In this document: positions 41,693 to 64,000 of the stretch, one piece after another
Layout: every line of letters starts with the position of its first letter
Position numbering within the stretch: position 1 is the stretch's first letter
NCBI GenBank assembly: GCA_019448385.1
Contig: JAGTXO010000010.1
Location: forward strand, 1,116,001 to 1,180,000
Direction: 5' to 3'
DNA from: Diacronema lutheri
Taxonomy: Eukaryota > Haptophyta > Pavlovophyceae > Pavlovales > Pavlovaceae
Length of the DNA stretch: 64,000 nucleotides
Made by a program: the position numbers and the translations under genes
Notes under the pieces: generated by a model
The model's input: the letters and a program-made list of their open reading frames with translations, nothing else
What the model was told of the DNA's origin: nothing
The model's database searches: none

Positions 41693-41725
<33 letters not shown>

Positions 41726-42663
41726 CTTCGGACTCGCTGCCCGGCTCTGCCTGTGCGGGCGCGATGCACTCGGACTCGATGCCCGGCTCTGCCTTCGTGG
41801 GCGCGGTCGCGGGCACGGGCGCGCCCTCGACCCCGTCGCGGTTGAAGACATCGAACTCGACGCACACGCCGTGGTCCTTGAAGTCGGTGGCCTCGCTGTC
41901 GTTCGCGTAAGCCTCGGGCGAACTCGCAACGAGCGACGACATCTCGGCGTGGAGCCAGCACATCTCATGCTGCACCGCGTGTTCAGGTTCTCGAGCGCTC
42001 CGTTGAAAGAGTCACTCTCACCGAGGCGCTCGCTGCACCACACCAGATAGCCATCGAGCTTGTGAGCGTGCTCGTGCGCCCGTGCGAGGTCCTTGGAGAG
42101 CGCGTCGGCGCGCGCGCACATGCCGTCGCATGACTTGGCCGGTGTCATGCTGTGCTTCCAAGGCCTGGTGCTCGGCGTTGAGCGTGTCGTGATCCTCGCG
42201 AACGAGCTGCAACCAGCTGCAGCAGCCGCGCGACGCCGCTGTCGCCGACGATGCGCTGGAGCATGTGGCCCATGAGGTGTGCGCGGCACGTGGCGAGCGC
42301 GACGTTCTTGCGCAGCAGCGCGAGGATCCGGGCGCCGCGGACGAGCCGGCCCATGCACTTGAGCGCGTAGATTCGGCCGCACATGCACGCGCCGACGACC
42401 GAGTCGGCGGGCCCGCCGTCGAGCCAAAAGTTGGCCTCGGCCGCATCGCGGCGGCGGGCGACGCGCTGAAGGATGCGCACGCGGTAGTGCCGGTCGACGA
42501 GCAGCTCGTCGCCGAAGATCTCGTCGGGCAGCAGCTCGGAGACGTTCTGGGGGTACATGCTGTGCGAGCGTGCACGCGACGAGATCTCGTCGGGCGTGCC
42601 GTCCGTTCGTTCAGAGCAGAGCGCGTCGGACCGGCAGACAGACGATGCAGCGCGCGAAGGCAC
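41640..42663 (-). pseudogene. Degenerate helical/coiled-coil protein gene, unknown
   Basis: Coding character on the minus strand is clear but spread over more than one frame, so the copy looks broken, with a few interruptions. The N-terminal part reads MYPQNVSELLPDEIFGDELL and then GACMCGRIYALKCMGRLVRG and LATCRAHLMGHMLQRIV, a helical domain that recalls DNA-binding modules of mobile elements and large DNA viruses, though I cannot name it. Later parts are coiled coil and an acidic, Pro/Ala-rich tail. It may belong with the other element-like remains to its right. Confidence 0.4.
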
Positions 42664-42973
42664 CTGCGGCGCGCGGCGTGGCCTCGCGTGCCGTCACGAA
42701 GCCGCCTGCGCGCACTGCGGAGGCGGCGAGCGCGACGAGGGCGGGCGCGGACGAGGTGCTGAGCGGCGTCACGTACGCGCCCTCGCTCGCCGAGCTCGAC
42801 GCCGCGGCGCTGACGATGCGCGCGGCGTACCACACCGACCGCCCCTGAGACGATGCGCGGCGCCCGCGGAGGACTGGTCCGTTGGCGCGCAAACCGTGGG
42901 CGAAAGGGCGCGAAGCCAACGGCCGTCCGCGCACGTTCAAACGCGCGCATACGGGTGGCTTCCTCCCACCTTC

Positions 42974-43290
42974 GGCGCCGCTTTTCAAAAGGGTGTAGGG
43001 TGTAGGGTGTCGGATGCAAAACAAGCCCTCCCCACATTTGGGCCCGACGTCATTCCTTCTTCGAAGCCGTGACGTTACTCACATACGAGTACTTTTACTT
43101 AGTGTAGGATGGATCTATTCTCTAAGTATTTACATAGTGTAGGGTGTAGGATAAGTACGGTTATGAAAGTCCCATAGGGGGAGAAGGAATGACGCTGTGA
43201 CGGAAGAAGGAGTGACGTCGGGCCCAAATGTGGGGAGGGCTTGTTTTGCATCCTACACCCTACACCCTACACCCTTTTAGAAAGCGGCGG
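42974..43290. repeat. Inverted-repeat element with TGTAGGG-like heptamers
   Basis: Two arms of about 88 bp (42974-43062 and 43203-43290) are reverse complements with only a few differences. They flank a 140-bp AT-rich spacer. Each arm carries three tandem GGGTGTA units, and the spacer has more GTGTAGG copies. Open frames leave both arms with the same first residues MWGGLVLHPTPYTLHPF, in opposite directions. No target duplication was recognised. It could be a MITE-like hairpin element or a scar containing telomere-like repeats. Confidence 0.75.
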
Positions 43291-43439
43291 CGCCTCGGAG
43301 CATGGCGGCTCGACAGCATGGCGCCTCGACAGCATGGCGTCGTCCAGCGTCACGCCGCGTCGTGGTCCTGCCGCTCCTCCGTGGCGCACGGATGGCGCTC
43401 CTCCGTGACGCAGCCGAACGACGCCGCGGCGTCACGGCC

Positions 43440-44990
43440 CGGGCGCAGTCGCCATCCTGGACGCCACGGATGGCGAACCGGTCGACGAGATCCGGCACGA
43501 GGACGTCTGCGCCATCGCCACGCAGCTCGACTGCGTCTACACGGGGCTCACGGGCTCGATGTTTGGCACCAAGTGGAACGTGTGCGGGGTCATGCTCCCG
43601 AAGCGCGCCGAGCAGCGGCCGCAGCCCGGCTCGGACGCCTTCGCCTCGTACAGCGTGGCCGCCTGGGCCGACACGTTCGACTCCACGGGGCTGTACGTGC
43701 CCGACGAGCGCGAGCGCGCGGCGGCGCTCGCGGCGGTGGCCGGTCTGCGCACGGCGCGCGCGCCGGCCGGGCCGGGCGGGCGCGAGCTCGCGCGCGCGCA
43801 GGGCTACGATCGCGCCGAGCAGGCTGCGAGCGCGGCGGCGGCGCGCGCGGCGATGGCCGAGACCGGCCAGCAGCGCGCGCTCCACGGCGCGGTCGTCGAC
43901 TCGGCGCTGCGCGGCGTGGGCGACCGGCTGCACTTTTGCGACGCGCCGGGCGGCACGGGCAAGACGTTCGTCGAGCGCGCCATCATCGCCGCCGTGCGCG
44001 CGGATGGGCACGCGGTCGTCGTGTGCGCGTCCTCGGGCGTCGCCGCCACGCTGCTGCCCGACGGCCGCACCTTCCACTCGACCTTCAAGGTGCCCGTCGG
44101 CGCCGACTCGGACGGGCAAGCCGTTCAATGGCGTGCCGCGCTCCGAGCGCGGGCGCTCCGTGGCCGCCGCGGCGAATGATCGTGGGGGACGAGGCGCCGA
44201 TGCAGAAGCGGGGCCGCCTCGACTCGCTCGATCGGTGTTTGCGCGACGTGACGGGCGTCGACGAGCGCTTCGGCGGCAAGACGTTGCTGCTCGCCGGCGA
44301 CTTTTGCCAGTGCTTGCCGGTGGTGCGGCGCGGCTCGCGCGCGCAGATCGTGCGCTCCTGCCTCGAGTACTCGGCATCGTGGCAGCACGATCGGCCGTAC
44401 GCCTTGGTCGAGAACTCTCGCGCCTCGAACGCGGCGCGCGACACGGGCGACGCGCTCGGCGCGGGCGAGTGGGCGAAGCTGCCGCGCAGCCTCGGCGACG
44501 GCGCCTTTCCCGCGGCGGTGCCGCCTGCGGGGGCCATGCCCGGCGCATTCCCGCTCGATCCCGTGCAGCTGCCCGAGGCGTCTCGGCCTACCCGGCGGAG
44601 CTCGTAGCCACTCGCCTCCTCTCGCTCGGCGAGGGGCTGTGCAGCGGCACGCGGCTGGTCGTGCGCGGCGTGCGCGCCGGCGGCCGGCTGCTCGAGTGCG
44701 CGCGCCCCGGCGCGGCCGCCGGGCGCGACAGCACCGTGCTCATCGCGCGCATCGACCACCACTCGCCCGACGAGGGCACGTTCGCGTTTGCATGGCTGCA
44801 CCGCCAGTTCCCGGTGCGGCCGGCGTAACAAGGCGCAGGGTCAAGCGCTCGGGTGCGCGGGCGTGTGGCTCGCCGAGCCGTGCTTCACGCACGGCCAGCT
44901 CTACGTGGCCGCTTCGCGCGTCGGGCACGCGTCGCGCATCCGCTTTGCGCTTGGCCCGGACCATGTGACGCGCACCGTCGTCTTCAAAGA
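43440..44990 (+). pseudogene. PIF1/Helitron-type helicase remnant
   Basis: The core helicase motifs are all visible in order: CDAPGGTGKTFVERA (Walker A), VCASSGVAATLLPDGRTFHS, IVGDEAPMQKRGRLDSLDR (Walker B), FGGKTLLLAGDFCQCLPVV and, near the end, FTHGQLYVAASRV, which match PIF1 helicases and especially the helicase half of Helitrons. Coding is spread over several frames, so this copy looks broken, with roughly three to five interruptions; spliced alternatives cannot be fully excluded. No Rep (HUH) domain is visible nearby, so a Helitron is not proven; large DNA viruses and other big elements also carry PIF1. The upstream 120 codons are of unknown type. Confidence 0.7.
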
Positions 44991-46443
44991 GGTGCTCCGC
45001 GCGGTCAGCGGTGGCGAGGCGGCGGCGGCGGCGGCGGCATTCGCCGCGGCCGCCGTCGCCGCCGCGCGCGAATGCGCGGCGGCGGCGCGCGGTGGCGGCG
45101 GGCGCGGCGGGCGCGGCTCGGACGGCGCGCGCGGCGCCGGCGGCGGGCGGCGCGCTGGCGGCGGGCGCGACGCCGGCGCGCGGTGCTGCCCAGCACCCGC
45201 CGGCGCGACGCCCGTCGCGCCGCTCGCGGCCGACACGCAGCCGGCGGGTGCTCGCCAACACCGCGCGCCGCGCGACTGGCCCGCGTACCTGCGCGCCCTT
45301 CTAGGGCGCGCAGGGCGGCGCCAATGCGGCCGGCAAGCAGGGGCCTCAAGCCGGCGCGCTGCCCGACGCCGCGTGGGTCGCCGCCGCGCGCGTGCCGTCG
45401 GCGCTGCCGCCGTCCGGCGTCGCGCTCGCGCCGCTGCCGCAACCTCAGCCGCCGCCGCCGCCGCCGCCTGCCGGCAAGCAGGGCAAGCGCGCAGCGGCGG
45501 CGACGGCGGTGCGCGGCCCGGCGAGCAAGCGGTAGCGGTGCCGCCGAGCCGGGGGCGGGCTCCGTGGGCGACGCGGCTTGGCCCGCCACTCGCACCACTC
45601 GCGCCGGGCGCGCACAACGCGCCGTGGTCCACTGCGTGGCCGAGCGAAAATGCGGTCCTGGCACGCCATGCGGGAGAGGCCGTACAGCGCGTGAGCTTGG
45701 GCCCGTGATTTATTACTCATGGATTTATTACTCATGCCATGGCGTCGCGCCACGATTACGCCCGTGGCCCCGGCCGCCAGCCTCGCGCCGCTACGCCGTG
45801 TCGTCGCGGCCGGCGCACACAGCGAACTGTGTGTCCGCGGCACATGCCCGGCTGCTCGCGAGCTGCAAGCTTGCCGAACTGCTCGCGCTAAAATGGCGCG
45901 TTGCGGGCGTGCCCGCGCACCGCGCGTATGTTCCGCGCGTTCCAGGCGCGCCGCGCCGCGCGCCGAAGCGGCGCGCGGCGCACGTGCGGCCGCGAGCCGA
46001 AGAGGGGCCGGCGCGACCGGCCGCGAGGCAGACGCAGACGCTCGGCGTGCCGGTCGACGCGTCGTCCAAATCCGCGTCGGGCGGATGCGCGCCTAGGCCG
46101 GCGCTGCGTGCAATCGGCGCGGGTCGCCGCCGCATGACGAAGCATGCTTCCATCCGGTGCTCGGCCACGCGCTCGGGCGTAACGTTCGCGCCTGTTCGGC
46201 CGAGGCGCACTCGCCGTCCCCTCGCGCCGGCAATGCGCGTGCGTGCCAGCACGCCGGCAGCGGAGGATGCCACGGCAGCGGCGAGCGGGTCCCCGCCGGT
46301 GTGCCGCTCGGCGCCCCGTCACGCGCAACGCGCGCGCCGCCCGCTGAACGCGCACAATTGCCTGGGCAAGATCGTCCCGCGCTCACGCCGCCGTCGCATC
46401 GTTCCATGCATGGCGCCCGGCTCGTCCGTACCGCTTTCGGGCA
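44991..46443. other. Low-complexity, gene-poor stretch
   Basis: About 1.45 kb after the helicase. 45010-45550 is alanine/arginine-type GC repeat sequence. A 13-bp inverted repeat (AGCACCCGCCGGC) lies near 45190 and 45250. A 15-bp unit ATTTATTACTCATGG-like is repeated in tandem at 45709-45738. Open frames over 45760-46440 exist on both strands but none shows a family signature. Confidence 0.45.
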
Positions 46444-48122
46444 GTGCCGCGACGCCCTTTTTCAAAGGCGGGTGCCGCGCTGATTCGTCATCGGCCACCA
46501 TCCATCTGGCCCTCTAAAGCCGGTTTGCGCGTGGGCGCCCGTCCGGTGCGAGAAGCGGCTCGCGTCCTCGCGCGGGGCGCCTCCGCGCCAGGCGCCCGGC
46601 GCGCGCTCGTCTTGCCGCGCCACCACGCTGATCTGCGCCCAACCCTCGCTCGCCTATTCCCCCGTCGTTTCTGCTGCGTAGCCCGCAACAGCGCGCGCAT
46701 GACGCGTGCACGGCGCAGCGCCTGGAGCAACTTCCGAGTCGTCGGCCGGCAGCCTGTGGGGGGCGCGTTCATCGGCCCGATGTGGCCGGTGAGAGTGCCC
46801 GACGTGCCGCGTGGTGAGCGCCTGCACGGCTCGCCGGGTTCGGCGCGTTCCCAGTCGGCCTCTCTCCGACCCGCCGTAAACCTTGCGTGCGCACCCCGCA
46901 CACCCGGCGCTGCGCGGCGCGGCGCAGGCGCGAAAAACGAGGGCAGCGCGTGCTACACGACCGTCCTTATGCAATCGCTCTTCGCCCTGAACATGCTCCG
47001 TGCGATGCTTCGCTCCGCTTCGCGCCGTGCCAACAGCGTCGAGAGGGCGCGTTTTCGGGACTTTGGCACGCTGATCGAGGACACCAGGGCGCCGACACGG
47101 CTGTGTCTTGTGTCCGTCATCGACGTCATCTCGGGCCGTGGCGCGCGAAGGACGCCGCAGGATGCCGCTGAGTTCTTCCGGTTGCTGCTCGGCCGAGTGC
47201 CCGGGCTCGCTGCGGCCTTTGAAGCCGACACACGCGTCGGGCCAGTGCTCGAGCAGATCGCCGTGCCTTCAGAGGCCGGCGAGGGCATCGCCGTACTCGT
47301 CAGCGTCGGCGGCGATGCGGCGCGCGCGCTTGCACACGCTCTGGGGGGCGCCGCTGGGCCGCCGCGGGATCGCCACACGAACGCGGGCCACTCGGGCGTG
47401 CTCACGCCAGCCAGCATTGCTGTCGAGGCGCCGCGCACGACGCGCGGCAATGGCTCGCAGTGCAAGAACAACCGCGCGCTCGTGTGCGCGCCGCGGCTGC
47501 TGCTCGGCGGGCGCGACCACCTCCCCGTCGCCGGCGTGGTGCACGTGGGCGAGGGGCCGATGAGCGGGCACCTTGTCGCCATCGTGCTCCGCAACGAGGC
47601 TTGGTTTCCGTGCGACGACTACAACGTGCGGCGGCGCGCACGGTCGCTCGGTGCCGCGACCGGCGGTCGAGCGCAGCCGCGACCGCCCCGTCCTCCCGCG
47701 CGGCACGCGCGCGTGGCCTGAAAGCTCGCGCGCGCGCCTGCCGCACGCACGCGCGTTGCCCGCGCAGATCTACAACGTGCCTGAGTCCGACGCGCTGGCG
47801 TGGGCAAGTGGTGCGAGCATGCTCGTTCACAGCCGGCTCGACGTGGAGCCGTTGGACCCGGCGCTGGGCTCAGCGTCACCGCCGTCGGCCGCATCGCCTG
47901 CGTGGCCGAGCTCGGAGCCCGACGCGCCGACCTTGCCGGCAGCCTGGCCGCGGGTGCGGCAGATGGCAGCGGTGCCAACAGATGCGACGATCGGCATCGC
48001 GGAGACGGCTGCAGACATCTCTACGGCGGCGATCGGCCCAGCTGCGTGCGAGGCCCGCCAAGTTGTCTCCGTGACGCGCGCATTGCCAACAGCGGTGAGT
48101 GCGTCCTCGTCTCCGGCGGCCG

Positions 48123-48159
<37 letters not shown>

Positions 48160-48376
48160 ACACACACACACAACTCTCCCTACCTTCTTCCTCCTTTCGC
48201 ACCTCGCACGCGCACGCCGTCCGCTGTCCGCTGTCCGCGGCCCAAATTGCCTTGCGGAAGCCGAGCAGGCAGAGCCCTGCTTGGATGGCTCCAGCGCGCA
48301 TCTTGTGGATGGCGACGCTGTGGGCGAGCACGGACGCTCAAATGTGACCAGTGGCGCGCACGTGCACGTGCGCTAA
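46444..48376 (+). CDS. Ubiquitin-specific protease (peptidase C19)
   Basis: Exons 46444-47625, 47768-48094 and 48269-48376 with GT-AG introns give 538 residues; the start is uncertain because the first 150 residues look non-conserved. The Cys box is NEGSACYTTVLMQSLFAL. A QDAAEFFRLLL block follows, as in USPs (QDAxEFLxxLL). The His box is GPMSGHLVAIVLRNEAWFPCDDYN, with the Asp just after, and exon 2 opens IYNVPESDALAWASGASMLVHSR, the usual final strand. The catalytic triad therefore looks complete, though the fold is compact, about 300 residues, with no zinc-binding insert. Such enzymes remove ubiquitin from proteins. Intron 2 contains a C run of about 34 and a CA repeat. It sits between element-like remains, so it may be cargo rather than a resident gene. 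Confidence 0.75.
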
Positions 48377-49161
48377 CTGGACGTCGAGCGTGTGCGCCTT
48401 GTCCGCACGTGTGCACTCACGTGCGTCTGCGGCGATCTGCCCGGCGTAGTAGTCCGCGCGCGCGGGAGCCGCGTCGGCAGTAGGAGCAGGATAACGTACT
48501 TGCGCCTGACGAGGACGGCGAGAAGTGCGGCTTTTCGCTCGGGGTCTACCATGCCGCCGAGGTTGGCGCTGGCGCGCGTGAGGCAGTCGGAGCGCGCTGG
48601 GCCCGGGTTGAAGGCCTCACCCCGTGGGACGGGAGGATTCAAGGCGCCGAGCCGCTGCGGGTGCGGCGGGAGGCCCCGGGCGGGTGTGCTAATGCGGCTC
48701 GATGGCCGCCTGCCGGGGGGGGGGGGGGGGGGGGGGGGAGGGGGGGGGGGGGGGGGGGGCGTTGGGCCGCCCGCGGAAACGGAGGTGAGCGTGTGGGAGC
48801 GGCGCGCGTCGGCGCGCGCGGCTGGCGTGCAGCACGGATAAGTCTTGTGTGGACTTCGCGGGGCGGATCCCGGTGCAGGGATTGCCGACGTAGGCCGCGA
48901 GCGCGAGCAGGGCGGGGATGAAGACGGATGATGGGGTTGGGGCCAAGGCCGCCGCACCCGCAGCTATCACGGTGGCAGCGACCGCCACGGTCAGTGCGAG
49001 GCTCGCGTGGCCGCTGCGCGGGCAGCTCGCCCGCCAGGTCCAGGAGGGCCGGCCTGCGGCCTCAGTGCCCAGCGTTGGGCATGTCAGCGTCTGCGTCTGC
49101 GGGCCCGCCACTGCGATGGCGCATTGAGCCTGGCGCACCAAAACGCAATCGGTCCGCCGAT

Positions 49162-49194
<33 letters not shown>

Positions 49195-51101
49195 CGAGGC
49201 GTGCGCGGGGGCTTGGGGTGGGCTCCGGGTGCCGGCGCTGTGCCAGCGGCGGGCTTGGTTGACGCCGTCTCGCCGGGGCCCTTGCGCCTTGCGGCGCGAG
49301 CGTCGCGGAGGGGCGTCGGCTGCGCTGGCTCCGCGTCGGCGGTGGCGTGGGGCAGGCTCTTGTGGAGGGCGGAGCGCTCGCGCACGAGTCGGTTGCCAAG
49401 GCGGGCTGTCTGCGTGCCGTTGGGCTGCGCTTGGGCAGGTAGGACCTGCGGCCTCGGGGGCGGGCGGGTTTTCGTGTTGGGCCAGGCGGCAACGCGCACC
49501 GGCCGTGTTCGCGGCCGGCAGGCGGACGTCCGCAGCGGGGCGGAGAATGCGGGTGAAGCGCTTGCACGGGCGCGGTTCGCACCTGGCGGCCAGGCGATCA
49601 CGAACCGTTGGGTCGCCCGGCTGTTTGGTGGAGCCGAGGGCAGCAAGGATAGCGAGCTTGGCCGCCTCATCGGTGACGAGCGGCACTGTTGCCCAGCTCT
49701 GTACCTCGAAGCCCTGGATGTGCAGGCGTCGGGGAAGTTCCCGGCAGCGTCGCCTGCGTCCGTCGAGAGGCGGACCGAAGTCGCGCCCGTGCCCCCGTTG
49801 GCGACACCGAGCTCTCGCTCGTTCACACCGGCCCGCCGACGCGGGCGCGTGGTGCGCGCGCGTTGGGTGCGTGTCTGCCTCGAGCAGCGTGCCCAGTCGC
49901 AGTGTGGGCGCGTGTCCGTCTGCCTCAAAACGCCACGTGGAGGGGAAGGCGCGGGGCGGGCTCGCCGAGGAGGTGCCGCCGCTCGCTGCCACCCGGCGCG
50001 GGCTCGGGGCAGCCGTCTTCGGGTGCCGCGCTCTTCGCGCCATGCACGAACGTTCCGCCGCGCTCGCAGCGCGCGAGCGCACACACAGAGCGCGCGGCGA
50101 CCCCGGCGGGGGCAGTGCGTCCCGGTGGCACTCGCGGGCGCGCGCCTGGCCTGGGCGCAGCTGGGCGCGTTGCCGCCCGCGCAGCGAGCCGCCCGCGCGC
50201 CTCGCCGCGCGCGCGCTTCGTCGCACGCGTGCGCCCTGCATGCACGCGCACAGCGCGCGGCGGCTCGGCGCAGTGCAAGGCAGAGCGTGCTGCAACGGTT
50301 GCGAGGGCGCGCACGCGCGGCGCGGCGCGCCCCTGTGTGGTCGCCTGCGCGCGGCGCGTGGTCCGGACGCAGCTCGGTGGCGTGATGCCGTTCGTGCAAC
50401 ACAGTGCGCGTGAGAGCCGCACGTGCACACCTGCAGTGCAACGCGGCATTGCGCGCGTTGCGTGGGCGGAGCGCGGCTGGATGTGCTTGAGGTCGCGCAG
50501 CATGCCGCGCGCCGCGCGCTGTGCGGCGCAGCGAGTCGGCCATGCCCCTGGTCCTCGTCTCCGGGGGGGGGGGGGGGGGGGGTGGTGGTGGCAACCAGGA
50601 TCCGCCAGCGCGTGGTGGGCGCCGTCCAACTCCCAGCCAGGATGCGCCCCGTTCTTCCCCGACACTCTCCGTCCAAACCCGCCGCCCAGCCTGCCGCCGC
50701 ACCCGCCGCCAACGCCGCCGCGCACCCATCCGCCGAGCTCACCTCGCGCGCGCTCGCGCTCACGCTGCGCGACGAGGCTGCGCAGGCCGGCGCGCGGCCG
50801 TGCAGAGCAGCGCAGGCCGGCGCGCGGCCGCGCGCGCGCGCTCACGTTGCGGCCGCGCAGCGAGCTTTCGCCGCGTCGCAGCCCCTCCGAGCAGCCACGA
50901 TGCACGCCCCCGGAGGACGTTGGCCGCGCTCGGAGGCCGCGCTCGGGCGCGCAAAGAGAGGCGGCGCGGGCAAACGAGTAGGCTCGGCGCGCTGGCGGGT
51001 CCTGGTTGTGGGAGAGCGGGGCATTCTCCAGGGCATCATGTAAATTCTCCCAAGTATCATCCGGGCCGCCATCCGGACACTGACGTGCCCACAGTCTGCA
51101 G
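48377..51101. other. Low-complexity spacer with G/C homopolymers; possible minus-strand gene
   Basis: G runs on the plus strand lie at about 48717-48760, 49163-49194 and 50563-50582. Between them the minus strand has coherent pieces: TVAVAATVIAAGAAALAP plus ALLALAAYVGNPCTG (hydrophobic, near 48860-49010), SWATVPLVTDEAAKLAILAA (near 49660) and NLGGMVDPERKAALLAVLV (near 48520). On that strand each C run is followed by an AG, as in a polypyrimidine tract before an acceptor, so a spliced minus-strand gene is conceivable. I cannot assign a family or a reliable start. Confidence 0.35.
50592..51008. repeat. Short inverted repeat pair
   Basis: A 21-bp arm starting CAACCAGGA at 50592-50612 recurs inverted at 50988-51008 with one mismatch. 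The ends lie next to a G run and just upstream of the giant gene's start. It may bound a small terminal-inverted-repeat element. Confidence 0.45.
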
Positions 51102-54100
51102 ATGGAGGACTCCGTGAAGGACGCTTTGCCCGGCGGGCGGGGCGGCTCGGACAGTTTCTCGCTGGCCCTCAGCACCATTCTGTCGCCGGGAGATACCCAC
51201 CCCCACGTGGTCCCATCCACTTGCCTCATCGCCCTGCTGCGTTACGCGGATTTCGGCACGAGCAGGGTTAGGGTGGGCGACACGGGGTGCTCGCAGCATG
51301 CGCTCAAGGTGGCGCTGCGCAACCTGCGCAAAGCATGCGCGGATGCGGACCGGTTTGGGCAGGTGCTCGTGGTCGTGCTACCGCTCTGCCTCCGCGCGTC
51401 CAGCGGCCTCGTGCACTGGACGGCGGCGTACCTGCTCCTCGCGCCGCCCGCGCAGCGCGGCGCGCCGCCCGGCGCCGCGCTCGCCCTGCTCGCCGATTCG
51501 CGCACCTTGGGCAACGGCGAATCGGCGTACGCCACGGCGGCCGGCGTGCTCATCAAGAAGCTTGCGCAGCGCATCGGCAGAACAGCGCCGCCCATCGATG
51601 CCTTCAAGGCGCCCCCGCAGAGTGGGGCCGCGTGTTGCTTCGCCGCGGCAACAGTCGCGGCCGAGGTCGTGGCGAGCGCATCGACGCTCTACGGCCGCCG
51701 CGCGAGTGTCCTTGTCGACATCAAGAAGGCTTTGGACGCGCGCCTCGCGCGCCTCACGACGGCCGCGTACGAGGAGACCCGCGCGCGCACGCTCCGCGCC
51801 GCCATCGGCGCTCTGCTCGGCGACCGCGCCAGGCGCTTCGGCCCGTTCACCCGCGAGGCCGCGCGGCTCGCCGAGGCCGCGCGGCTCGCCGAGGCGTGCG
51901 ATGCCAGTGTCGGCGGATCCGCGCCCGACGGGCTGCTGCAGGCCGTCGAGGCGGCGCTGCGCGCGCCCGACGACCGCATCGCACGCACGGCCGCGCTCGA
52001 CGCGCTCACGGGCGCTGCAGGCCGCGCGCTGTCGACGGCGGCCAGGCCGCGCGGCGCGGCGGCGCCAAGGCCGCCGTCGCGAGCGCCACCGCCGCGTGCG
52101 CCGCAGCGGCGCGCCGCCTCGGCGTGGGGGCCCCGACCATTCAGCAGCCTCGGCGGGGGCGAGGGCGACGGGGACGATGGCGACGCCACCACCGCTGACG
52201 ACGGGGAGGGCGCGGAGGACGGGGACGACGACCCCGCGGGCGCGGCGGCTGCGGCGGTGGCGACGGGCACGGCGGCGACGAGCGCGGTGGCGGCGGGCGC
52301 GGCGCCAACCTCGCCGGCGGCGGCGGACGGCGGTGGCTCGGCGCCGCTCGAACGCCGCTGCGTCTACACTGCGCCTGATGAGGGCGACGCGGACGCGCGC
52401 GTGTACGACGCCAAGGACCCCGAGCAGCTAAAAGCGGGCAGGGCGCGGCTACGGGCGAACAGCGGGCGCGCGCCCGCCGTGGTCGACACGCTTTTCGCGC
52501 ACGCGACGGGCACGATCGTCACGCGGCAGCGCACGGAGGGCGTGACCGGCGCGGGCATGCACCACCTCGCCGCCCCGACGCAGGGCGCGGGGTACGGTAC
52601 CGTCGTGCGGGCCGAGCTGGGCGAGCCCGGCTTCGCGGGGACGACATGGCACATGACGTCGGGCGTGGAGAACCAGCCGCGCGCGGTACGAGCGGCCGCG
52701 CGCGCGTACGCGCACGACGGCTGGGGCGGCGTGTACAATGCGCACGAGGACTTTGCCGCCTTCGAGGGCTTGCCGCGGCTCGCCGCGCCCGAATCGCTCG
52801 CGGCCATCGCCGGCGGGTCGGCGGACGCGGTGTTCTGCTGGCGGTCCGGCCGGTCCGTCATCGGCGAGGTGACGACGGTTCACTTCAATGGCGACCGCGC
52901 CGCCGCCATCGACCACGCGCGGGCGCTGCGCGTCAGGCCCGATTGGCGCTCGCAGCCCAGGATCTACGAGGCGGCGTGCGGCGCGGAGGGCACGGTGCTG
53001 CTCGTGTGGGTCGTGCCCGACCGTCACAAGAACCCGCGGCTGGACTGGGCGCCGATTCTCGTCGTGATCCACCTGCCCGCCGACCCCGACTGGCTCGCGC
53101 GCGCCACGCCGGCGATCGCGAAGGCGCGGCGCGAGGTCGAGGACGGACGCGCGCGCGCGGAGGCGCGCGGCGTGCCGCAGCACCTCGCCTACACGCTGAG
53201 CCCACGCTTCCGAGGCACCGCGCCGCGCGGAGCCGCGCGCGTGCCGCCGCGCCTCGGCGCGAGCGACGCGCGCGAGGCGCGCGCGCTCGCGGCGCTCGAG
53301 CCGGCGCTCATGTTCGCGCCGGCCTGGCGGCGCGCGGTGCGCGCGGCGAGCCGCGCCCCCGGCAGTGGCGCCGCGGCCGTCGAGCGCGCGCTCGCGCGCC
53401 TGCACAACGCGCTCGAGCCCGATGACGAGAGCGCGCCCGAGTCGACGCGCGTCGCGCCGCTCGCCGCCGCGCTCGAGCAGTCGGCGGGCTGGCCGGCGGG
53501 CACGGCGCGCATGGCGGCAAGCGTGACCAAGGGCCCCGGCGTCGGAGATGGCGCAGGTGGCGACGAAGTGACCAAAGTGGAGGAAACGGCGAAGACGAGC
53601 GGAGACGGCTGCACCGGCACGCCTCCTCTGCGCCCGGCCGCGCGCGCGGCCGGCGCGGCGGACGACGGAGGGGCGGCGGTCGTGGCGGGCGTCGAGGGCG
53701 AGCGCGACGCACTCGCCAAGACGGGTGCCGGCGGCCGCGACGACGACGCTCGCGAGCCGCTGTCGGCCGGCAAGCCCGGCGCACTCGCCGCCGCGGCGAC
53801 CGTCGGGGGTCTCGGCGAGCTCGTCGGCAGCCTATGCGCGTGGCTGGCGCGCGGCGCGGCTGGCGGCGCCATCGCGGCCATCTCCCCCGGGACGGCCGCG
53901 CGCGGAGCAAACGGCACGCCGCAGCGCGCCGAGCCGCCGGCCGCCGGCGATCCCGTCGCTCCGCACGCGCGCGTCGCCGCTGCGGCGCCCTTGGCGGGCA
54001 GCGCGGCGGCGCCGTCGTCGGCCGCGCGCGACGCGCAGCGCGGCGTCGCGGGATTCGACGCGGCCGCGCACGCGCACGCGCGCGACGGCAGGCGGGCGGC

Positions 54101-57100
54101 ACGGCGGATGCGCGAGCAGGAGGGGGCGGTGCACAGGGCCTTCCGCATGTCCCTCTGGCGCGACGCGACGTTTGTCGAGTTCGTTGAGAAGCTGCGCCCC
54201 GACGGCGGCGCGCAGCTGCTCGCGCGCGAGCCCACGCGGCGCGCGGCGGCGGTGCTGTGCGAGCTCGCGCGCGGCCGCGACGGCGCGAGCGGCGCGGCCG
54301 GGCTGCTGCACGAGATGAGAGCCGCCGATGCGCGCGCGCGCGAGGCCGCCAAAGCGGCGGAGGCAGCGCAGCTTGCGCACGGGACGCTGCGCATCGTGGC
54401 AACCGTGGCGCTGGGCGGTGCGGTCTTCGCCGGCATGTCAGCGCTGGTCGTTGCTTGCGCGGCGCGCACGGCGACCGGTGCGCTTTTTGGGGCCCGCCGC
54501 CCGCGGGCGGCCGCGCGCGGAGCCGACGACGCGCTCGGCACGCTGCAGCGCGCCAAGCCGCCGCCCGCCGACAAGGGCAAGCGCAGGCGCGCCAGAGCCA
54601 ACGACGACCCCGTCGACGCGGCGCGCAAGGCCGTGGGCAAGGCGGAGGGCAACTGCCGCAAGGCAGCCCGCCGGCTGCACCTCGCTGCACTGGGCGAGGA
54701 GGAGGCGCAGCAGCGCGTGCTCGACGCCGAGGCGGCGGAGCAGCTGGCGCGCTCGCGCGAGCCGGCCGGCGGCTGGGTAGGCAGCGCGCGCGCGCGCGCG
54801 CGCGCGCGCCCCGCCGCGCGCGCGCCCGTCGATTGGCGTGCGCGCAGCGCAGAACGGCGCGCCAGCTCCGTCACCTGCGCGCCGCCGCGCCCGTGCCCCT
54901 CGCGCGCAGGGGCGCCCTGCGGACCTGCGGCTGCAACAGGCGCACTTTGGCATGCGCGAAGATGCCGACGCGGATGTGCGCCGCGCGCACGAGGCGCTGC
55001 GCCGGGCGAGAGAGGGTGTGGCGTGCGCCAAGGCCAGCGTGCGGCAGATGGAGGCGGCGTTGCTCAACGCGACGCGCTGCGCCACCGCGGTGCTCGCGCC
55101 GCGTGGCGTGCCGGAGGGTGACGAGCAGGCCGCGGCGAGAGAGCAGGCGGCGCTGGACCGGGAGGCGCCGCCGGCCGCGCAACGCGCGGCGCCGACGGCG
55201 CGCTCGCCCTCGGAGCCGCCGTCCGAGTGGGGCCCGCCAGCGGTCGGCCGGCGCCCGACGCCGCGTGCACTGTCGCACGCCGCGGGTCGCGGGGACGACA
55301 ACCCGTTTGCGCCGCTCGCAACCGTCAGCGGCGATTGGTCGCCCACGCCGAGCTCGCGCTCGCCGTCCTCGCCGCCGCGGCAGCCGCCGTCCGACCGCCG
55401 CAGCGCGCAGCGTCGCAGCGCGCGCGCGCGGCCGCCGAGGCCGACCGTTTCGCCCGAGGACGCGCTCGCAGCCGAGCGCCAGGCGCGCGCGCTGTCGGAG
55501 CAGGCGGAGCAGAGGCGCGCCAAAAAGGCCGCCGCCAAGGCCGCGCGCCGCGCCGCGCGCGCCGCCGACAAGCGGACGGCGCGCGTCGTCCACGCGTGCG
55601 TAAGCGCCGCCTTGCGGCGCGTCTGCACGAGCGTCGCCACGGGCACGCCGCTCGCCGTGCTCCGCGAGCGCGCCGAGGGGCCGCGCGCGCCGAAGCCCGC
55701 GCCCGCGCCGCCACGCCGCGCAGCGGACGGCGGCCGCGCGCTCCGCCACGCGCGCCGTGCGGCCGCCGCGGCGGCGGAGCGCGAGGCGGCGGTGGCGGCC
55801 GACGCCGACGAGCGGTTCGAGCGGCAGCCCTCCACCGCCCGGTTCGACGGCGGCGATGGCGGCGGAGGCGGCCACGTCGAGGCGAGCGCGCGACCGCGCG
55901 CCGGCGAGGCCGGCGAGGCTGGCGCGCACGGCGCGCCTGGCGCAGCGGGGACCCCGGCGGCGTCGCTCGCGTCGCGCAGCCCGTGTGATGCGCGCCGCAC
56001 GGCACGCCTCCCGCACGCACGCGCCGCAGCCACCTGCGCACGCAACGGCGGCTGGGGTGGCAACGTCGGCGGCGACGTGTGCGGCGGTTGTTTCGGCGGC
56101 GGCGGCGTCCGTCGCGACGCCTGCGGCGGCGGCGACGCCACCTGCGGCTGCGGCGATGGCGGCGTCGGTGCTGGCGCTGGCGAGGCCCCTGCACACGGTG
56201 CGCCGGCGCGCGCGACGGCGTCGCGCTTGCTGCGCTTGCTCGGCGCGCCACGCGCCGTGCTCGGTGCGATGGCGCACGCCGCGGCCGTGTTGGCGCGCGG
56301 CGTGGCCGCAGCCGTCGCTGGCGTGCGCGCCGCCGCGCGCGCCGTGCGGCGCGCGCGCCGCCGAGCGCCTCGCGCGCGCCGCACGGCTGCGCGGCGGGCT
56401 CGCGGCCCGCCGATGCGCGACGTCGACGGCGCCCTGCGGCCCTCGCCGTCCTGGTTGCGCACACGCCTCGTCTGCGGCCGGCGCCTCGCGCCTCTGCGCC
56501 GCGCGGGCGCGCGCCCGCCGCCCGCACACGCCGCGCCGAGTTCCCGCGCGCGCGCTGCGCAACCCGACAGCGACGCGCCGGCGTGCGCGCCGCGGCGCTC
56601 GGCGCCTGTCGGTGCGCCGCCGCGCGCGCGTGGCCTGCGCGCGGCGCGCGCACGGCGCTTCCTCGACGTCGCCGGCCGCGCGGCGCGGAGCGCGCGCCTC
56701 GGCGCGCGCATCACGCGCCAGCGCACGCCGGGTTCGCCATCGGAGCCCTGCACGGCCGAGAGCGGCGACGGCGCGGGCGCCGGCGGCGTCGGCGCGGCGG
56801 CGCCTGGCGCGGCGACGATGCGCGCCACCGGCGCGCGCGCAGCGCGCGCTGCGGCGGCGGCGGTCGGTGGCGCCTCGCGTCTCGCGCGCCGCGCGATGGC
56901 AAGCGCCGCCGCCGCTGCCACCTCCATCGCCGGCGCTGCCGCCTCCACCGTCGCCGCCGCCGCCGTTGCCATCGGCGCGGCCGTCACGTCACCGGCGTTC
57001 GCCGCGGCGCGCGGCATGGCGGCCGCATGCGTCGCTGCCTGCGCCCGCCCCACCGCCGCGCAGGCGGCCGCGTCGCGCGCGCTCGGCGCGCTCTTCGTGC

Positions 57101-59357
57101 TCGTCGACGCGGCCGACGCGGCGGGCGACAGCGACGCCGCGCTCGGCGCGCTCGCGGCCGCGGTCGACGCGACGGAGCTGCGCCCGCCGCCGGCCTTTTG
57201 GCGCGCGGGCCGCGCCGCGGCGTACGCACCGCGTCCGCCGCCCCTCGACTCGGCGCGGCCGCGCTACAACCGGCGCGCGCGCGCACCTAGCCCTCCCGTC
57301 GCGGCCGCGCGGCGCAATCTCGCGCGCGCGGTGCGCGAGCTCACGCGCGCCGCGCGCGCTGAGCGCGAGCGCGCGCCGGCGCCGCGCGGCGCGCGCGGCG
57401 GCGTGCTCCACGCGCTGCGCGCGTCGCTCCCCGTGCACGCGCGTGCCGCGCTCGGCACGGACGCGGAGCTGCGCGCGGACATCGCCGCGTTCGCGCGCGC
57501 GCGCCGCGAGCTGCACAGCCTCACCGACGCCGAGGTGGCGGCGCTCGCGCGCCCGGACGGGCCGCCGCTGCCCGTGCGGCTCGCGTGCACGGCGGTCGCG
57601 CGCGCGCGCGGCGTGACCGTGCTGCTCGACATCGTGCCGCGCGGCGGCGGCGCGCCCGAGCGGCTCGTGTGCCGCGCCCGTCGCCGCGGCGCCGCCACGC
57701 GCACGCCACGGCCGACAGCCGCCGTTATCGCGCGCGCGCCTTGCATAGCGGCGCGCGTTGGCCACACTGAGCCGGCGCGCGCGTGCGCGGGCGGATCGAT
57801 CGGGGTCGCGCGCCTCCGTTCAGCGCGCCGCCGCTCTTGGCGTGGGGCGCGGCTCGACGTGCACACCCGCGAGCGGCTGGCCACACCGGTGCCAGGCCAC
57901 GTCGTGGCCTGCGCCGCCGCCTCGGCCATCGGCGCGTGCGTCGCTCGCGCGCGGCTTGGGCTTGCACGGCTGGCGCGCGCGTGGCCCTGCGCCTCCGCTC
58001 CACTGGCCGCTGCTGCTGTCGCCTTCGCGCCTGCCGCCGACGGTGTTTTCTGCGCCCCGCTGGGCGCTCCTGCATCCGCCTTCGCGCCTGCCGCCGACGG
58101 TGTTTTCCCCGCCGCACTAGCCGCTGCTGCATCCGCCTTCGCGCCTGCCGCCGATTTTCCCGCCCCACTAGTTGCTCCTGCATTCGCCTCCGCGCCTGCC
58201 ACCGACGGCGTTTTCCCCGCCCCACTAGCCGCTGCCGCTGCCGCGTCCGCGCCCGCCGCCGCGGGCGCGTCTTCCGCCCCACCAGCCATCGCCGCCGGGC
58301 CCGCCGCCAACGCGCGCACCGCCAACGTGCCCGTTGCCAACGAGGCTACCGCCACCGAACCAGCCGCCCTTGAGCTTCCCCTCCAACCCGCCAACTCGGC
58401 GCTGCTTGCGTGGGCGGGCGACGCGGCTGCGCGCCGGCTGGCCGCCGCCGCCGCGAGCGCCGGCCTCCCGCAGGCAGAGGTGGAGCGCATCGCCAGCGGC
58501 GACATGCTCGCCTCAACCGTCGACGCGTGCTGCGAGGTCGTGCTGCGCGTGCACGGGCAGGCCGGCGGCGGGCATGTCTGCCACGTGCCGCTCGCCGCGC
58601 AACCCGCGGTGTTTCAGGACGACGCCGAGCGCGCCGCGCTGCTGCACCGCCTGCGCAGCGAGGCGACAACGCAGGCTGTCATCGGCGTGTGGAGCCCGTC
58701 GGACGAGCGCGGCGGCGCGGGCGGTGACGACGGCGCGCAGCTCGCCTCCGGCCATTTCACCGCGTTGCGCCTTGTGCGCGTCGCGCGCGCGGGCGAGCAT
58801 CGCTACGACGCGGTGCTCGTCGACACGCTCGCGTCGCCCTGCAGGCAGGCGCTCATGCTCGCCAAGGCGATAACTGCCACGCTGCACGCGGCGGGTCTCG
58901 ACATTTCGCGCGTGCGCCGCGCGCTGCTGCTCAACGAGGCGGCGCAGCGTGGCGCGACGTGCGGCCTCGCGATAGTGGGCGCGCTCAACGACGCGCTCGC
59001 CGCGGCGGGCTGCTCGTCCGCGCCGCGCACGTTCAGCGTGGCGGACATGTACGCTGTCGGCGAGCGCCTCCGCGTCGCGCTGACCGGCGCGGCCAGCGAT
59101 CGTGCGCCGGGCGGCGTCTGCGCGGTCACGAGCGCGGTGCGTGGCGGGGGCAGCCCCGATCGCGCCGAAACGCCGCCGCAGACGCGCGGCGCCAAGGCCG
59201 CCGCTGGCGTCACCGCCGCCGCCACCGCCGCCGCCACGCCGCCGCCGCCCGCGCTGGGCGCCGCCGCCGCCGCCACCGCCGCCGCCGCCGCTGCTGCCGC
59301 CGCCGTGGCCGCGCCGCCACCGCCGCCACCGCCGCCGCCGGCCGGCGACGCGGGCGA

Positions 59358-59430
<73 letters not shown>

Positions 59431-62400
59431 GCCGCGCGCACGTTCTTGAAGCTCGCGCCCAGGGCGCGCGCGGCCGCCTCGGCGCGTGAGGCGTTGCGCG
59501 CCGCGTGTGCGCGCGCGGACGCGGCGGCGTCGTCACACGCGTCGGCGCCGCACGCGCCCGCCGGTGCGCGCCGCCGGCGGCGCGCGGGCGCAGGCGAGCT
59601 GGCGCTCGCGGCTGCGCGCGCGCTCGCCTCGACGGAGCACGGCGATTTGACGGACGACGCGCTCGAGGCCGCCGTCGAGCAGGAGCTGGGCGACGAGCGC
59701 GGCCAACTGCTGCTGTGCACGCGGGGCGCAGCGGCGCAAAGGCCCGCGCTTTGCCGGCTCCTGAAGCACGCGTGCGCGTCGGCGCGCGCGGCGAAGCGCG
59801 CGCAATTCACGGTGTTCGTCGTGCGCGCGGCCACGCGCGGCGAGCGGGGGGGCGCCGCCGCGAGGCGCGTGGACTCGGTGGTCGAGCTGTCGTGCGCGCT
59901 GCACGAGAAGGCGGGCGCGCTCGGCGGCCTCCAGCGCGTCTGTGTGCGTGGCTTCGCCCTCGAGCGCCGCCGGACACTCGACGCTGGCGCCGAGGCCGGC
60001 GCGTCCGCCATCGGCCAGGACGAGCAGGTCGAGGCAGAGGCGGGCGAGGCGTGCGTCGCCGGCGTGACGATGGCCAAGCAGCTGCGTCAGTTTGCCGAGC
60101 AAGCTGCCCGCGACGACGTGCTCTTCCACGTCGCCGTGTCCGAGGCCGACGCCCACGCCCGGCTGGCGCGCGTTGCGGGTGACGATGTCGGCGCGTACAG
60201 CGTCGTGCTCGCAGTCGCCGGGCTCGTCTGGCTGGCCAAGGCCGACGAGGTTGCGCCGGCGGCCGCCCAGCCCGCCGCCGTGCCGCCCGCCGCCCCGCCT
60301 GCTGCCGCCACGTCCGCCGACGCCGAGCGCGACGCCTCGCCTTCCGACCGCCTGCGCGCGCTGACGCTCGCCGTGCGAGTCGCGCTCGCGCGCGGCGTGC
60401 TGCGCCACCTCCTCGCCGACGCGTCGCCGGGCGCGTCCGCGACCGCTGGCGGTAGTTGCGCGACGCCCGTCGAGGCGGCCACGTCCGCCGCCGCGCCGCC
60501 CGCCACGGGCGTCGTGACGAGTGGCGTTGCGGCGGGCGCTGTGGCGGCCGCACCGGCTGCTGCGGGCGGTGCGATGGCGGGTGCATCGCCCATCACGCGG
60601 CCGGCGAAGCGCGCGCGGCGCACGCTCACCGCCGCTCCAGCCGCCTCGGCCGTTGCGGCCGCTGGAGGCGCACGCGCGGGCGCACGCGGCGCGGCCGGCG
60701 CGCCTCGCGCGCGCGCCGCGCGCGCGCCGGCCGAGTACGTCTGGCTTGCCATCGCGCGCCGGATGCTGGCGGCGCGACACGCGGCGGCCGCGGGCGGCGA
60801 CTTTGTCGCGTCGTGCGTCGCCGCGATGCAGGCCGAGTACGGCGACGGCTGTGCCGTCGTCGTCGGCGACGCGCCTGATGACGCCTTGGTCGAGGCTGCG
60901 GCGGCGGCGCTGCTCGAGGGCAAGCACGCGGCGGTGAGCCTCGGCTGCGTCGACCGGCCGGCGGTGCTCGTCGTGCAGCGCGCCGTGGACGCGCCCACGT
61001 CGCGCGTGCACGGGTGGTGCGCGCACGCGGCGGGCGCCGCCGAGTTTGACGAGGGCGCCGCGCACGGCGTGTTCAACGCGATCGTCGAGCGCGCGTGGGC
61101 GCTGCGTCCGGACCCGGCCGACGGCAGCCCGCCGCCCACGCGCACGTGGGAGGTCGAGCAAATCGCTGGCGACGCGCCCGACCAGGCGGGCGTGGCCGCG
61201 CTGCGCGTGCTCTACGCGCTCGTCGCGGCGCACGGCCGCTACCGCTCGGCCGCCGCGCTCTTTGGCGCGCTCGCGCAGCTGCACGCGCCCGACGCCGCCG
61301 GCGCGCGCGCGGAGGTCGTCGCGGCGGCGTGCGCGGTGCCGCCCGGCGCGCGGCCGGGCGCCGCGCCGGCGGCCGCGCGGGACGACGCGAGGGAGCGCGC
61401 ATGGGACGGCGCTCAGATCGCCGCGCTCGCCGTCGGCGCGGACGCTGCGCGCAGGCGTGTCGCGCCCGTGCGCGCGCTCGTCGACGCGCTCGGCACGCCA
61501 CCGACCTCGGCGATCACGGGCGGGCCGGCGGTCCGGCTCGCGGGCGCGGGCGACGGCGGCCACGGTGCACGGTGGGTGGGCGGGCAGGCGGCGACGCCCG
61601 CCGAGCAGCTGCCGAGGGAGCTGCTGCGCGCCTACCACGAGGCGGTGCTGTGCGTCACGCCCGGCAGCCTCCAGCTCGGCCCGGCGGCGCTCGACGCGGT
61701 CACGCGGCCGCGCGAAAACGACACGCTGGAAGGCCTCCTCGCGCGCGTCAGCTGGCAGTGCGGCGCGAGGGCGAGCACGTGCGCCATGCTCGCCACGTTT
61801 TCCGAGCAGGCGGGCACCGGCTCGCGCGTCGCGCTCAAGGCCCTCCGCACGAGCTCCGACCTGGCCGGGCTGACGGCGGCTGCGGTCGGGCAGCAGGCGC
61901 CGCAGACGCCGCCGCCGCCGCTTCTCGTGATGCTCGGCCGCTGCCCCAGCCCGCTCGTCGGCGGCGGCCTCTTCCCGCCCGACCGCGCGACGGGCGAGCC
62001 GGCGGTGCACGCGGCGACGTCCGAGCTCGCCGTCGAGCTGCTGCGCGACGCGCGCGCGCTGGCCGGCACGGACGGGCGGCTCGTCGTGCTGTGCCTCGAG
62101 GCGTCCAACCCGCTCTGGTTCTGCCCCAAGGTGCGCGAGCTCGAGCTGCCGCGGACGCGGTCGGACGGCGTGCGCGCGTCCGGCTGCACCTGCCCTGCGA
62201 CGTGCAGCGATGCGCGCGGCGCGGCGGGTGGCGCTGCCCGCGGCGCATCGACGCGGCCGGCGGCGCGCGCGATCAACAAGGCGGTGCTCGACCACTTCGT
62301 CGCGCTTTTCGGCCGCGAGGGCTTCGCGACCTTTGAGTTTGCGGGCGGCGGCGAGGCGAGCTGGCTGTGCGACAGCGCGGCCGGCACGACGACCGTCGCG

Positions 62401-64000
62401 GCGTGCGCGTCGCTGCCGCCGCGCATGGGCGATGGGCAGCTGGCCATCCGGCGGCACACGCTCGGCACGGGCGCCGACGCGCCGGCGCACGCCGTCGTCT
62501 CGCTCCGCGTCGCGCACGTGAGCCACGCCATCCGCCGCGCGGCGGACGACGGCGGCGCGCGCGCCGAGCGGATGGCGCGCGCCGCGCGCGCGTTCTGCGA
62601 TGTGGCGGCCGCGCTGCGCGTCGACGCGATCCTGGCGGAGGTGCCCGAGGACCGCCCGACGGGCACGCCCTTCCTTGGCGGGCTGCTCAAATGTTGGGAC
62701 AAACGCAACGGGAGCTGGACGGCGCCAGCCACGCTCGCGCTCGGAGACGTGCGCGAGGTGGCCAAGCGGACGGCCGACGCAGCGGCCGGCCGAGCGGACG
62801 AGGTCCCTGCGGCTGGCCGTCCGCAGGTCGCGGCGCGCGCGTGCGCTGGCGCGATTGGCGGCGGCGCGGGCGCGGCGGGCGCCTCGGACGCTGCGCCGCG
62901 TGCACTGGCGGGCGCGTCGGGTGCGCGCACGGACGGCGGCCCTGCCGACGCACCGCGCCAGCTGGAGAGCCGCTACGGCGAGGCGAGCAAGCTCGACCTA
63001 CCCCAAGATTCCACTACGGGCCGCGTCCTCGACGCTCGCGAGGCCCAGGACCGCGCGCGCGTGCCTGCTGCGCCCGACGGCACAGCGCTGCGCCGCGTGC
63101 TCGACGCCGTCGGCGCGGGCGCGCCCGCGCAGCGCAGCCCGCGCTGGCACGACGAGCGATGGGAGGAGGTCACGGGCAGCAAGGTTGGCGACGTCGTGAA
63201 CGACAACGCCGGCGTCGCGCACGAGACGCTCACCGACGAGTACGTGCACCGGCGGCGGCGCGAGGTGCGGACCAAGGCGACGACCGCGGGCATCCTCGGC
63301 GAGGCCGTCGCGCTGCGCAAGCTGGCGGCCGCGTACGGCATCACCGTCGTGTGCAACCTGCCGATGGTGCGTGCGGACCCGCACGACAAGAGCGCGCCGT
63401 TCGCCTTCTCGCCGGACGGGCTCGCCATCCTCCCCGAAAACAACGAGCAGGTCCTCGTCGAGGTGAAGACGCTCACCAAGGCGGGCGCCACGGCGCACGA
63501 GGACGGGCCGCCGCAGCCGCACCGCGATCAGCTGCAGCTCGGCATGCACGTCCTCGGCGTGAGCAAAGCGCTCTACGTGCAGTACCTCAGGCACGAGGAC
63601 CGGATCGTCGTGCACGTCGTGACGCGCGGCGCCGGCTGGCTTGCATTCGCGCAGCCGAGGGTGCAGGCCTTCTGGGCGCGCGTCGTCGAGCGGCGCGCGC
63701 GGCTCGAGCGCGCGCGCGCCGACCACCCGGCTGCGAGCCGGCGGCACCGGCGGCAGCAGACGCCGGCCGGGCCGCCGCTCGTGCTCGCGCTGGACGGGCG
63801 CATCCCCGCCGCGCGCGCCGCCGCGCTGCACGCCGTCGCGCACGGCACCGCGAGCGCGGCGGCGGTGACGGCGGCGGCGGCGACGGGCGACGCGACGGCG
63901 TTGCAAGACGCGATCGCGGCGCTGCGCGCGCCCGTCGGCAATGCGGCGATCGACAGCGCAGCGCGTGCGGAGCGCGCGGCCGTCGAGCGGGCGATCGCGT
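51102..64000 (+). CDS. Giant multidomain protein with Ulp1-like proteases and YqaJ nuclease
   Basis: Exon 1 51102-54776 (1,225 codons) and a second exon from 54910 to beyond the window, joined by a 133-bp GT-AG intron, keep one coiled coil continuous across the joint. The second frame has no stop in 9.1 kb, so the protein exceeds 4,255 residues. Residues 37-190 carry H105-W, D132 and Q173 with C178/C179, spaced like a Ulp1/C48 protease. Near residue 1,110 is a membrane-like helix. A second Ulp1-like set lies at H2507, D2530, Q2571 and C2576 (QRGATCGLAIV). From about 3,965 a YqaJ-type nuclease follows: SPRWHDERWEEVTGSKVGDV, SPDGLAI (D4061), VLVEVKTLT (E4076, K4078), then QLQLGMHVL. Linkers are Ala/Gly/Pro-rich. 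The role is unknown; an element-encoded polyprotein or replication factor is a guess. The ATG follows an acceptor-like TGCAG, so an upstream exon is possible. Confidence 0.75.
58021..58245 (+). repeat. 57-bp (19-residue) tandem repeat in the giant gene
   Basis: About four copies start at 58021, 58078, 58135 and 58186; the third is 6 bp shorter. Each encodes a unit like AFAPAADGVFPAPLAAAAS. Phase is kept throughout, which supports translation of this frame. Confidence 0.75.
59200..59445 (+). repeat. GCC-type trinucleotide repeat in the giant gene
   Basis: Nearly pure GCC repeats encode polyalanine and polyproline runs between the second Ulp1-like region and the next helical segment. Length is probably polymorphic. 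Confidence 0.8.

Follow-up and report, generated by a model that had tools for sequence, protein, structure and literature searches.

Here, we report a giant repeated DNA element of the haptophyte Diacronema lutheri, whose main gene is the open frame that fills the last 12.9 kb of a 64,000-nucleotide stretch of the genome (NCBI GenBank assembly GCA_019448385.1, contig JAGTXO010000010.1, positions 1,116,001 to 1,180,000; here, the window). The element is best explained as a giant DNA transposon, and its extent, copy number, and gene content were computed from the assembly (43,492,796 bases, 103 contigs; the window is C86:1116001-1180000). Its predicted polyprotein carries a lambda-exonuclease/YqaJ-like domain, a chromodomain, and a C-terminal Fanzor (TnpB-like) nuclease, and we lean towards a transposon of three genes whose single-strand- or recombination-dependent movement is coupled to Fanzor. 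The original prediction for this DNA, made from the letters alone, had offered the frame as a possible new protein family; the unrecognised architecture was borne out, but the frame encodes the polyprotein of a mobile element present in many copies and is not the lone gene of a new family.

Ends, copies, and insertion sites of the element

The window copy and its left boundary comprise the following features.

40979..64000, plus strand: giant element, window copy, 29.4 kb, with left end TAGGGCGCGGTC and right end CTATAC at window coordinate 70422 (ends read in the sequence; extent from alignment with copies A, B, C, and D)
40974..40978, plus strand: CTATA, the left-boundary motif [C/G]TATA, which probably belongs to the target (left flanks read)
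41021..41038, no strand: 18-nt perfect palindrome GTACGACCCGGGTCGTAC at the left end (read in the sequence)

The element ends are (TATA)TAGGG...CTATAC, and the right end of the window copy lies 6.4 kb past the window end. Copies A and B (both on contig C9), C (on C11), and D (on C1) are 97.8 to 99.6% identical to the window in long blocks from 46484 to the right end, the common part reaches left to about 40972, and further copies on C26 and C92 are 99.4 to 99.5% identical to the window over 10 kb. Across the assembly, the left terminus was located at 226 places and the right terminus at 218 (≤3 mismatches; no control match). The protein of window positions 63000 to 63800 gave 144 scored matches among 231 candidates, all of them 99 to 100% identical and 139 of the 144 stop-free. 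Twenty copies with both ends on one contig were 21.5 to 32.2 kb long (median, 31.0 kb; mean, 28.6 kb); 12 of these measured 30.5 to 31.1 kb, and four measured 21.5 to 21.6 kb (C29:771420, C14:231734, C27:64287, and C5:257856), the latter being probably a deletion derivative that spread. Multiplied by the mean length, 218 copies amount to 6.2 Mb, or ~14% of the assembly, an estimate in which some contig ends overlap and copies may be collapsed. With the compared copies about 99% identical, the family looks young and recently amplified.

The left ends listed fall into two subfamilies, TATAGGGCG and TATACGGCG. In the left part of copy A, ~870 bp (L027:8564-9431) equal their own reverse complement at about 93%, with traces in the window at 42973-43062 and 43203-43292; this stretch is possibly an origin or a nested foldback. 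A supposed second class of copies, with a 633-residue Fanzor frame and no YqaJ-like domain, was discarded; the one of these copies that was read, on C29, belongs to the same family, matching copy A at 99.57% identity over 10 kb, and seemed to lack the domain because it was only unscored there.

The base before TATATAGGG/TATATACGG was C (18) or G (7) in all 25 left flanks read out of the 226 left ends, with one insertion counted twice (window and C28); the query that retrieved these copies already contained the TATA except for its first base, so that its constancy is partly by selection and only the C/G is independent. Further out, the left flank showed no clear constraint, and to the right of CTATAC, G was preferred (13 of 20). 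The 20 copies with both flanks had 19 different flank pairs; a variable target duplication of at least 3 bp was absent in 19 of them and was 3 bp long in one (shuffled pairing mean, 0.56).

Copy C is inserted in a fatty acid hydroxylase gene. Its flanks, joined with AGTATA kept, read HHKYNYTFGMFTVLWD (Pfam, 45.4 bits) and, joined without AGTATA, read HHKYNFGMFTVLWD (42.8 bits), both in frame; by our own reading, a TATA duplication would leave 7 extra nt here and break the host frame. The spacing in a solved relative is no shorter (weak match; E value, 0.14). Given this frame and score, the left TATA is probably target DNA, and the element would be TAGGG...CTATAC, inserted 3' of [C/G]TATA. Several insertions lie in an apparent host repeat, GCGYCGTTAG(TATA) or similar, whose unoccupied units could be empty sites.

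The end of contig C28 carries the same insertion as the window, with the left flank 98.9% identical over 2.2 kb and the right junction identical over 85 bp; this overlap of the C86 and C28 ends spans the element and its flanks (window 38803-41039 and 70359-70443). The two contigs are probably neighbours left unjoined by the assembler. In C28, the Fanzor part is a stop-free frame of 1,015 residues, like most copies scored, and the contig continues for 436 kb beyond the recurring right flank. The published assembly of D. lutheri NIVA-4/92 (43.503 Mb; 103 contigs; longest, 3.042 Mb; contig N50, 852 kb; 73.25% GC) was made from reads with an N50 of 23.5 kb (PMC8379373), which is shorter than the element and explains contig breaks in that assembly. 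A telomeric element, suggested by contigs C1, C12, C3, C8, and C13, which start or end exactly at the right end, was ruled out: contig C32 begins with the left end, many copies lie inside contigs, and the right flank of the window copy recurs in C28.

The open frame and its coding evidence

The polyprotein gene is laid out in the window as follows.

51102..54776, plus strand: polyprotein exon 1, 1,225 codons (translation)
54777..54909, plus strand: intron 1, 133 nt, GT-AG, with a variable (GC)n run
54910..64000, plus strand: polyprotein exon 2, continuing beyond the window
57995..58261, plus strand: in-frame tandem repeat of 57-nt (19-codon) units, 1,185 nt longer in copy C
63145..63555, plus strand: lambda-exonuclease/YqaJ-like nuclease domain, residues 2746 to 2882 (PF09588 E value, 0.021; TIGR03033 E value, 2e-5)

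The predicted exons and intron held up in the sequence. Exon 1 translates to 1,225 stop-free residues, the intron begins with GTAGGC and ends with CGCGCGCAG, and the more than 3,000 open codons claimed after it were found as 3,030 residues without a stop (54910-63999), up to the window edge; the two exons total 4,255 residues in the window, the minimum given by the original prediction. Extension of the contig, named there as a check, showed no stop before window coordinate 67749, the contig itself reaching 6,443 bp beyond the window; copy A has coding capacity for about 6,200 residues in this gene, spread over three exons, and the gene as predicted spans 18.9 kb. The claim that internal repeats keep phase is correct for the 57-nt units. 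As for the protein itself, a phase-keeping open frame is supported, and its domain order matches no recognised architecture. Assembly error, which had been named as a possible origin of the frame, is contradicted by copies A, B, C, and D, which are open for 4,504 to 6,136 codons; in a fifth copy, the frame is likewise open throughout the 10 kb read.

Long open frames are cheap in DNA of 80% GC, and the stretch was compared with 300 sequences simulated under a first-order Markov model and matched to it in length and composition (12,972 nt, 79.9% GC). The longest open frame observed had 4,323 codons, against a simulated median of 874 and a maximum of 1,919 (n = 300). An artefact, whether from contig duplication or from a frame left open by chance at high GC, is scarcely credible: long spurious frames do occur (the antisense frame within the same stretch has 1,584 codons) and the end of the window contig does overlap C28, but no simulation approached the observed length and 19 different flank pairs occur among the 20 copies.

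GC contents at codon positions 1, 2, and 3 of exon 2 were 0.82, 0.67, and 0.90, and the third position was the GC-richest in nine of 10 blocks of 900 nt, by a marginal lead in the block at 55810 (0.86 versus 0.85); the exception, the block at 57610, contains the 57-nt repeat. Polyprotein indels among copies A, B, C, and D and the window sum to multiples of three, including the 1,185 nt of copy C, except that, within ~3.3 kb of its contig end, the window copy has six 1-nt insertions against copy A, which are best read as unpolished sequence. In the intron, by contrast, the (GC)n run of copy C falls 4 nt short of that in the other four copies. Coding indels in threes beside a 4-nt difference in the intron are as predicted for a translated frame with a real intron. 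Between copies A and D, substitutions at codon positions 1, 2, and 3 numbered 14, 21, and 13.

Gene content and route of movement

Upstream of the polyprotein, the window copy carries two further frames.

43473..46123, plus strand: single-strand-binding (SSB)-PIF1 helicase gene, this copy, 91 to 96% identical to copy A in blocks, lacking about 178 residues from the start of the SSB domain
46348..47718, plus strand: USP/UCH-like protease open frame (UCH E value, 3.4e-8; 33.9 bits; cut-off, 23.9; copy B E value, 4.3e-8)

The second gene of the element is a giant-virus/T7 gp2.5-type SSB domain fused to a PIF1 helicase. It is damaged in the window copy, with gaps between the aligned blocks, and the PIF1 domains were scored on copy B (PIF1 E value, 1.8e-24; Pif1_2B E value, 6e-13). 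The SSB domain is a gp2.5-type oligonucleotide/oligosaccharide-binding (OB) fold with a helical insert, closest to African swine fever virus CP312R among the folds compared by VIA.

Within the polyprotein, the original prediction had seen protease and nuclease signatures. The former was not confirmed: no Pfam, NCBIfam, or PDB sequence match was obtained, Ulp1-like H...D...Q..C motifs were seen by eye only, the C48 profile had no match in the polyprotein pieces, and PF02902 had nine genome matches, too few for the element. The protease with profile support is instead the UCH/USP one, in the separate upstream frame. The nuclease signature was upheld, weakly in profiles, by the TIGR03033 and PF09588 matches listed above, and candidate PD-(D/E)XK motifs (SPDG...EVK) were read in the translation. 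The Fanzor part, which lies beyond the window and has about 850 residues from a start judged by eye, matched the PF07282 zinc ribbon (TnpB/Cas12f) with 27.3 bits (E value, 4e-6; cut-off, 26.3), and the window's own unpolished copy scored 23.2 bits, below that cut-off. It also has the Fanzor motif D-X(125,275)-[TS][TS]XX-[C4 zinc finger]-X(5,50)-RD, as defined in PMC3627910, with D171, a gap of 184 to TS, the C4 zinc finger, and RD 8 residues past its last C. No clear coding frame was recognised in the 3.4 kb between the USP frame and the polyprotein or in the left 3 kb, and ten frames from these regions had no Pfam match with an E value of <0.01 (best, RES, 0.027). Searches for tRNAs and Rfam families detected none.

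Pfam scans covered some of the frames of the element. We infer that a single-strand or recombination-dependent route fits the gene set (SSB, PIF1, lambda-type exonuclease, and RNA-guided nuclease). In outline, single-stranded DNA of the element would be generated and processed by the helicase, SSB domain, and exonuclease; its joining 3' of [C/G]TATA would fall to an endonuclease domain that escaped recognition or to a transposase supplied in trans, and the chromodomain could steer the complex to chromatin. With a guide RNA from the right end and [C/G]TATA as target-adjacent motif, Fanzor would cleave the empty site, repair after this cut would copy the element back in, and the protease domains would mature the polyprotein. 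Because [C/G]TATA lies left of the insertion, in the position of a TnpB/Fanzor target-adjacent motif, Fanzor could cut the site emptied by loss of the element, which repair would then restore; the target-adjacent motif of SpuFz1 is CATA (PMC10432273).

A number of results weigh against this scheme. No known transposase was recognised in the frames scanned, which leaves the proposed route of movement conjectural. The right-end RNA showed no fold beyond shuffles (z, -1.09 and -0.37) and no Rfam match. The PF09588 and TIGR03033 scores lie under their curated cut-offs, NCBIfam guided_TnpB gave the Fanzor part 12.1 bits, and that part had no PDB sequence match. Substitutions between copies A and C were spread over codon positions 1, 2, and 3 as 32, 26, and 28 in exon 2 and 3, 5, and 3 in exon 1; lacking a third-position excess, the young copies have diverged without visible constraint, and selection on the protein is unsupported within the family. 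At the insertion site, TATA stands at both ends in 20 of 20 copies by construction, and a constant 4-bp TATA duplication would look alike; the sole argument against such a duplication is the host-gene reading frame of copy C, and the target origin of TATA comes down to 2.6 bits of Pfam score in that one copy. One pattern search for an empty site found none.

The same observations can be read as a giant element that is non-autonomous and depends on a transposase from another locus, possibly one of cut-and-paste type that leaves a fixed TATA duplication; the genes of the element would then serve replication, homing, or persistence. TATA at both ends and the lack of a transposase in the frames scanned agree with this, as does the view that the giant elements of Ectocarpus are moved in trans (PMC12477816). 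We nevertheless consider it rather unlikely, for no autonomous element sharing these termini came to light (20 copies measured, few read inside) and the host-gene frame of copy C misfits a TATA duplication. DDE transposase domains of Pfam were absent from the frames scanned. Tyrosine recombinases (PF00589), the enzymes of Starship and Crypton elements, matched at 16 genome places, too few for ~220 copies, and at none in those frames, and by eye the polyprotein showed no convincing HUH or tyrosine recombinase motif.

A giant Helitron (or Helitron2) with captured genes, in which the Rep (HUH) protein is too diverged to see, would account for the PIF1 helicase, the SSB domain, and the lack of a variable target duplication, and Fanzor1 is known in Helitron2 elements of Chlamydomonas (PMC3627910). 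Helitron_like_N (PF14214), however, matched at one genome place (C63:35738-36019; E value, 8e-23) against about 220 copies of the element, and at none in the frames scanned. The ends also lack 5'-TC/CTRR-3', terminal folds stay within shuffles (z, -1.74 at the left and -0.32 and 0.32 at the right), and left and right ends are near equal in number, whereas the Fanzor-Helitrons of Chlamydomonas have an excess of 3' ends (PMC3627910). We regard such a Helitron as an unlikely identity for the element.

An integrated virus, giant-virus or Polinton-like and reduced to replication genes, would fit the nearness of the SSB fold to CP312R and the presence of YqaJ in such viruses. Fanzor is known in large algal viruses (PMC3627910). 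Against it stand about 220 copies with fixed ends, the absence of capsid, packaging ATPase, and polymerase domains among the Pfam matches of the frames scanned, and the lack of any relative of the PIF1-frame, Fanzor, SSB, YqaJ, and USP queries in the scans of IMG/VR contigs (some patterns of one scan were out-of-frame); we hold this origin to be highly improbable.

For the three-gene transposon that we favour, a more far-reaching claim is that it represents a new superfamily of eukaryotic DNA transposon. In such a superfamily, the place of a classical transposase would be taken by recombination proteins of viral character (gp2.5-type SSB, PIF1 helicase, and lambda-type exonuclease) together with the Fanzor of the polyprotein, and [C/G]TATA would be both insertion site and target-adjacent motif. 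We put this forward tentatively, as possible but doubtful; if true, RNA-guided self-propagation would have carried a 31-kb element to about 14% of the nuclear genome.

Known systems and relatives

Fanzor proteins are known mainly as cargo of other transposons, in an unclear role. Here, Fanzor sits in an abundant, often intact, young-looking family of a cultured alga with a 43.5-Mb genome. Since insertion sites, a candidate target-adjacent motif, and a guide-candidate right end can be read from the genome, the use of Fanzor to a transposon becomes directly testable. KDZ, EnSpm, and Sola elements are of DDE type, with target duplications, and fungal Starship elements combine giant size and precise ends with a tyrosine recombinase. 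The present element is like Starships in size and precise ends but has no tyrosine recombinase in the frames scanned.

Neither Fanzor in transposons, including green-alga Helitron2 (PMC3627910), nor giant DNA transposons of >30 kb (Ectocarpus; PMC12477816) are new. With CRe-1, 2, and 3 of Chlamydomonas (Helitron2; Bao and Jurka 2013, PMC3627910), the element shares a Fanzor protein in an algal DNA transposon and full-length insertions beside a short motif, without target duplication there and without a variable one here; it differs from them, as described there, in its size of ~31 kb, in a Fanzor that ends a polyprotein of about 6,200 residues, and in having no Rep domain found and no 3'-end excess. 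IS200/IS605 elements with TnpB (PMC10432273) likewise have a TnpB-like nuclease and, on the left side of the insertion, a short invariant motif that could act as target-adjacent motif, whereas here no TnpA was found, introns are present, and the SSB, PIF1, exonuclease-like domain, and chromodomain come in addition. The giant KDZ, EnSpm, and Sola elements of Ectocarpus are also DNA elements of >10 kb, up to >30 kb, with a visible share of the genome (KDZ, 1.8%; EnSpm, 1.1%; compared with about 14% by estimate here), but they belong to known transposase superfamilies (PMC12477816), and no DDE domain was found here in the frames scanned.

Among the best open-access literature matches, to which subscription papers and preprints do not belong, no combination of a Fanzor-ended polyprotein of ~6,200 residues with a gp2.5-type SSB and PIF1 and without a recognised transposase was met. 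The accessible text of the D. lutheri genome paper names long terminal repeat (LTR) and long interspersed nuclear element (LINE) repeats and no such element, and "transpos" does not occur in it (PMC8379373).

By sequence, no PDB entry matched Fanzor, SSB, YqaJ, or the N-terminus with an E value below 0.4, and the SSB profile had no match in prokaryote genomes. The YqaJ region retrieved one protein, from Pavlova lutheri itself, and the Fanzor part retrieved one ENA protein, 98% identical (best 8,000 candidates scored). For SSB, one identical protein and eight that are 46 to 73% identical were found; the eight are proteins of 246 to 276 residues, some on contigs of up to 21 kb, and possibly belong to related elements or viruses.

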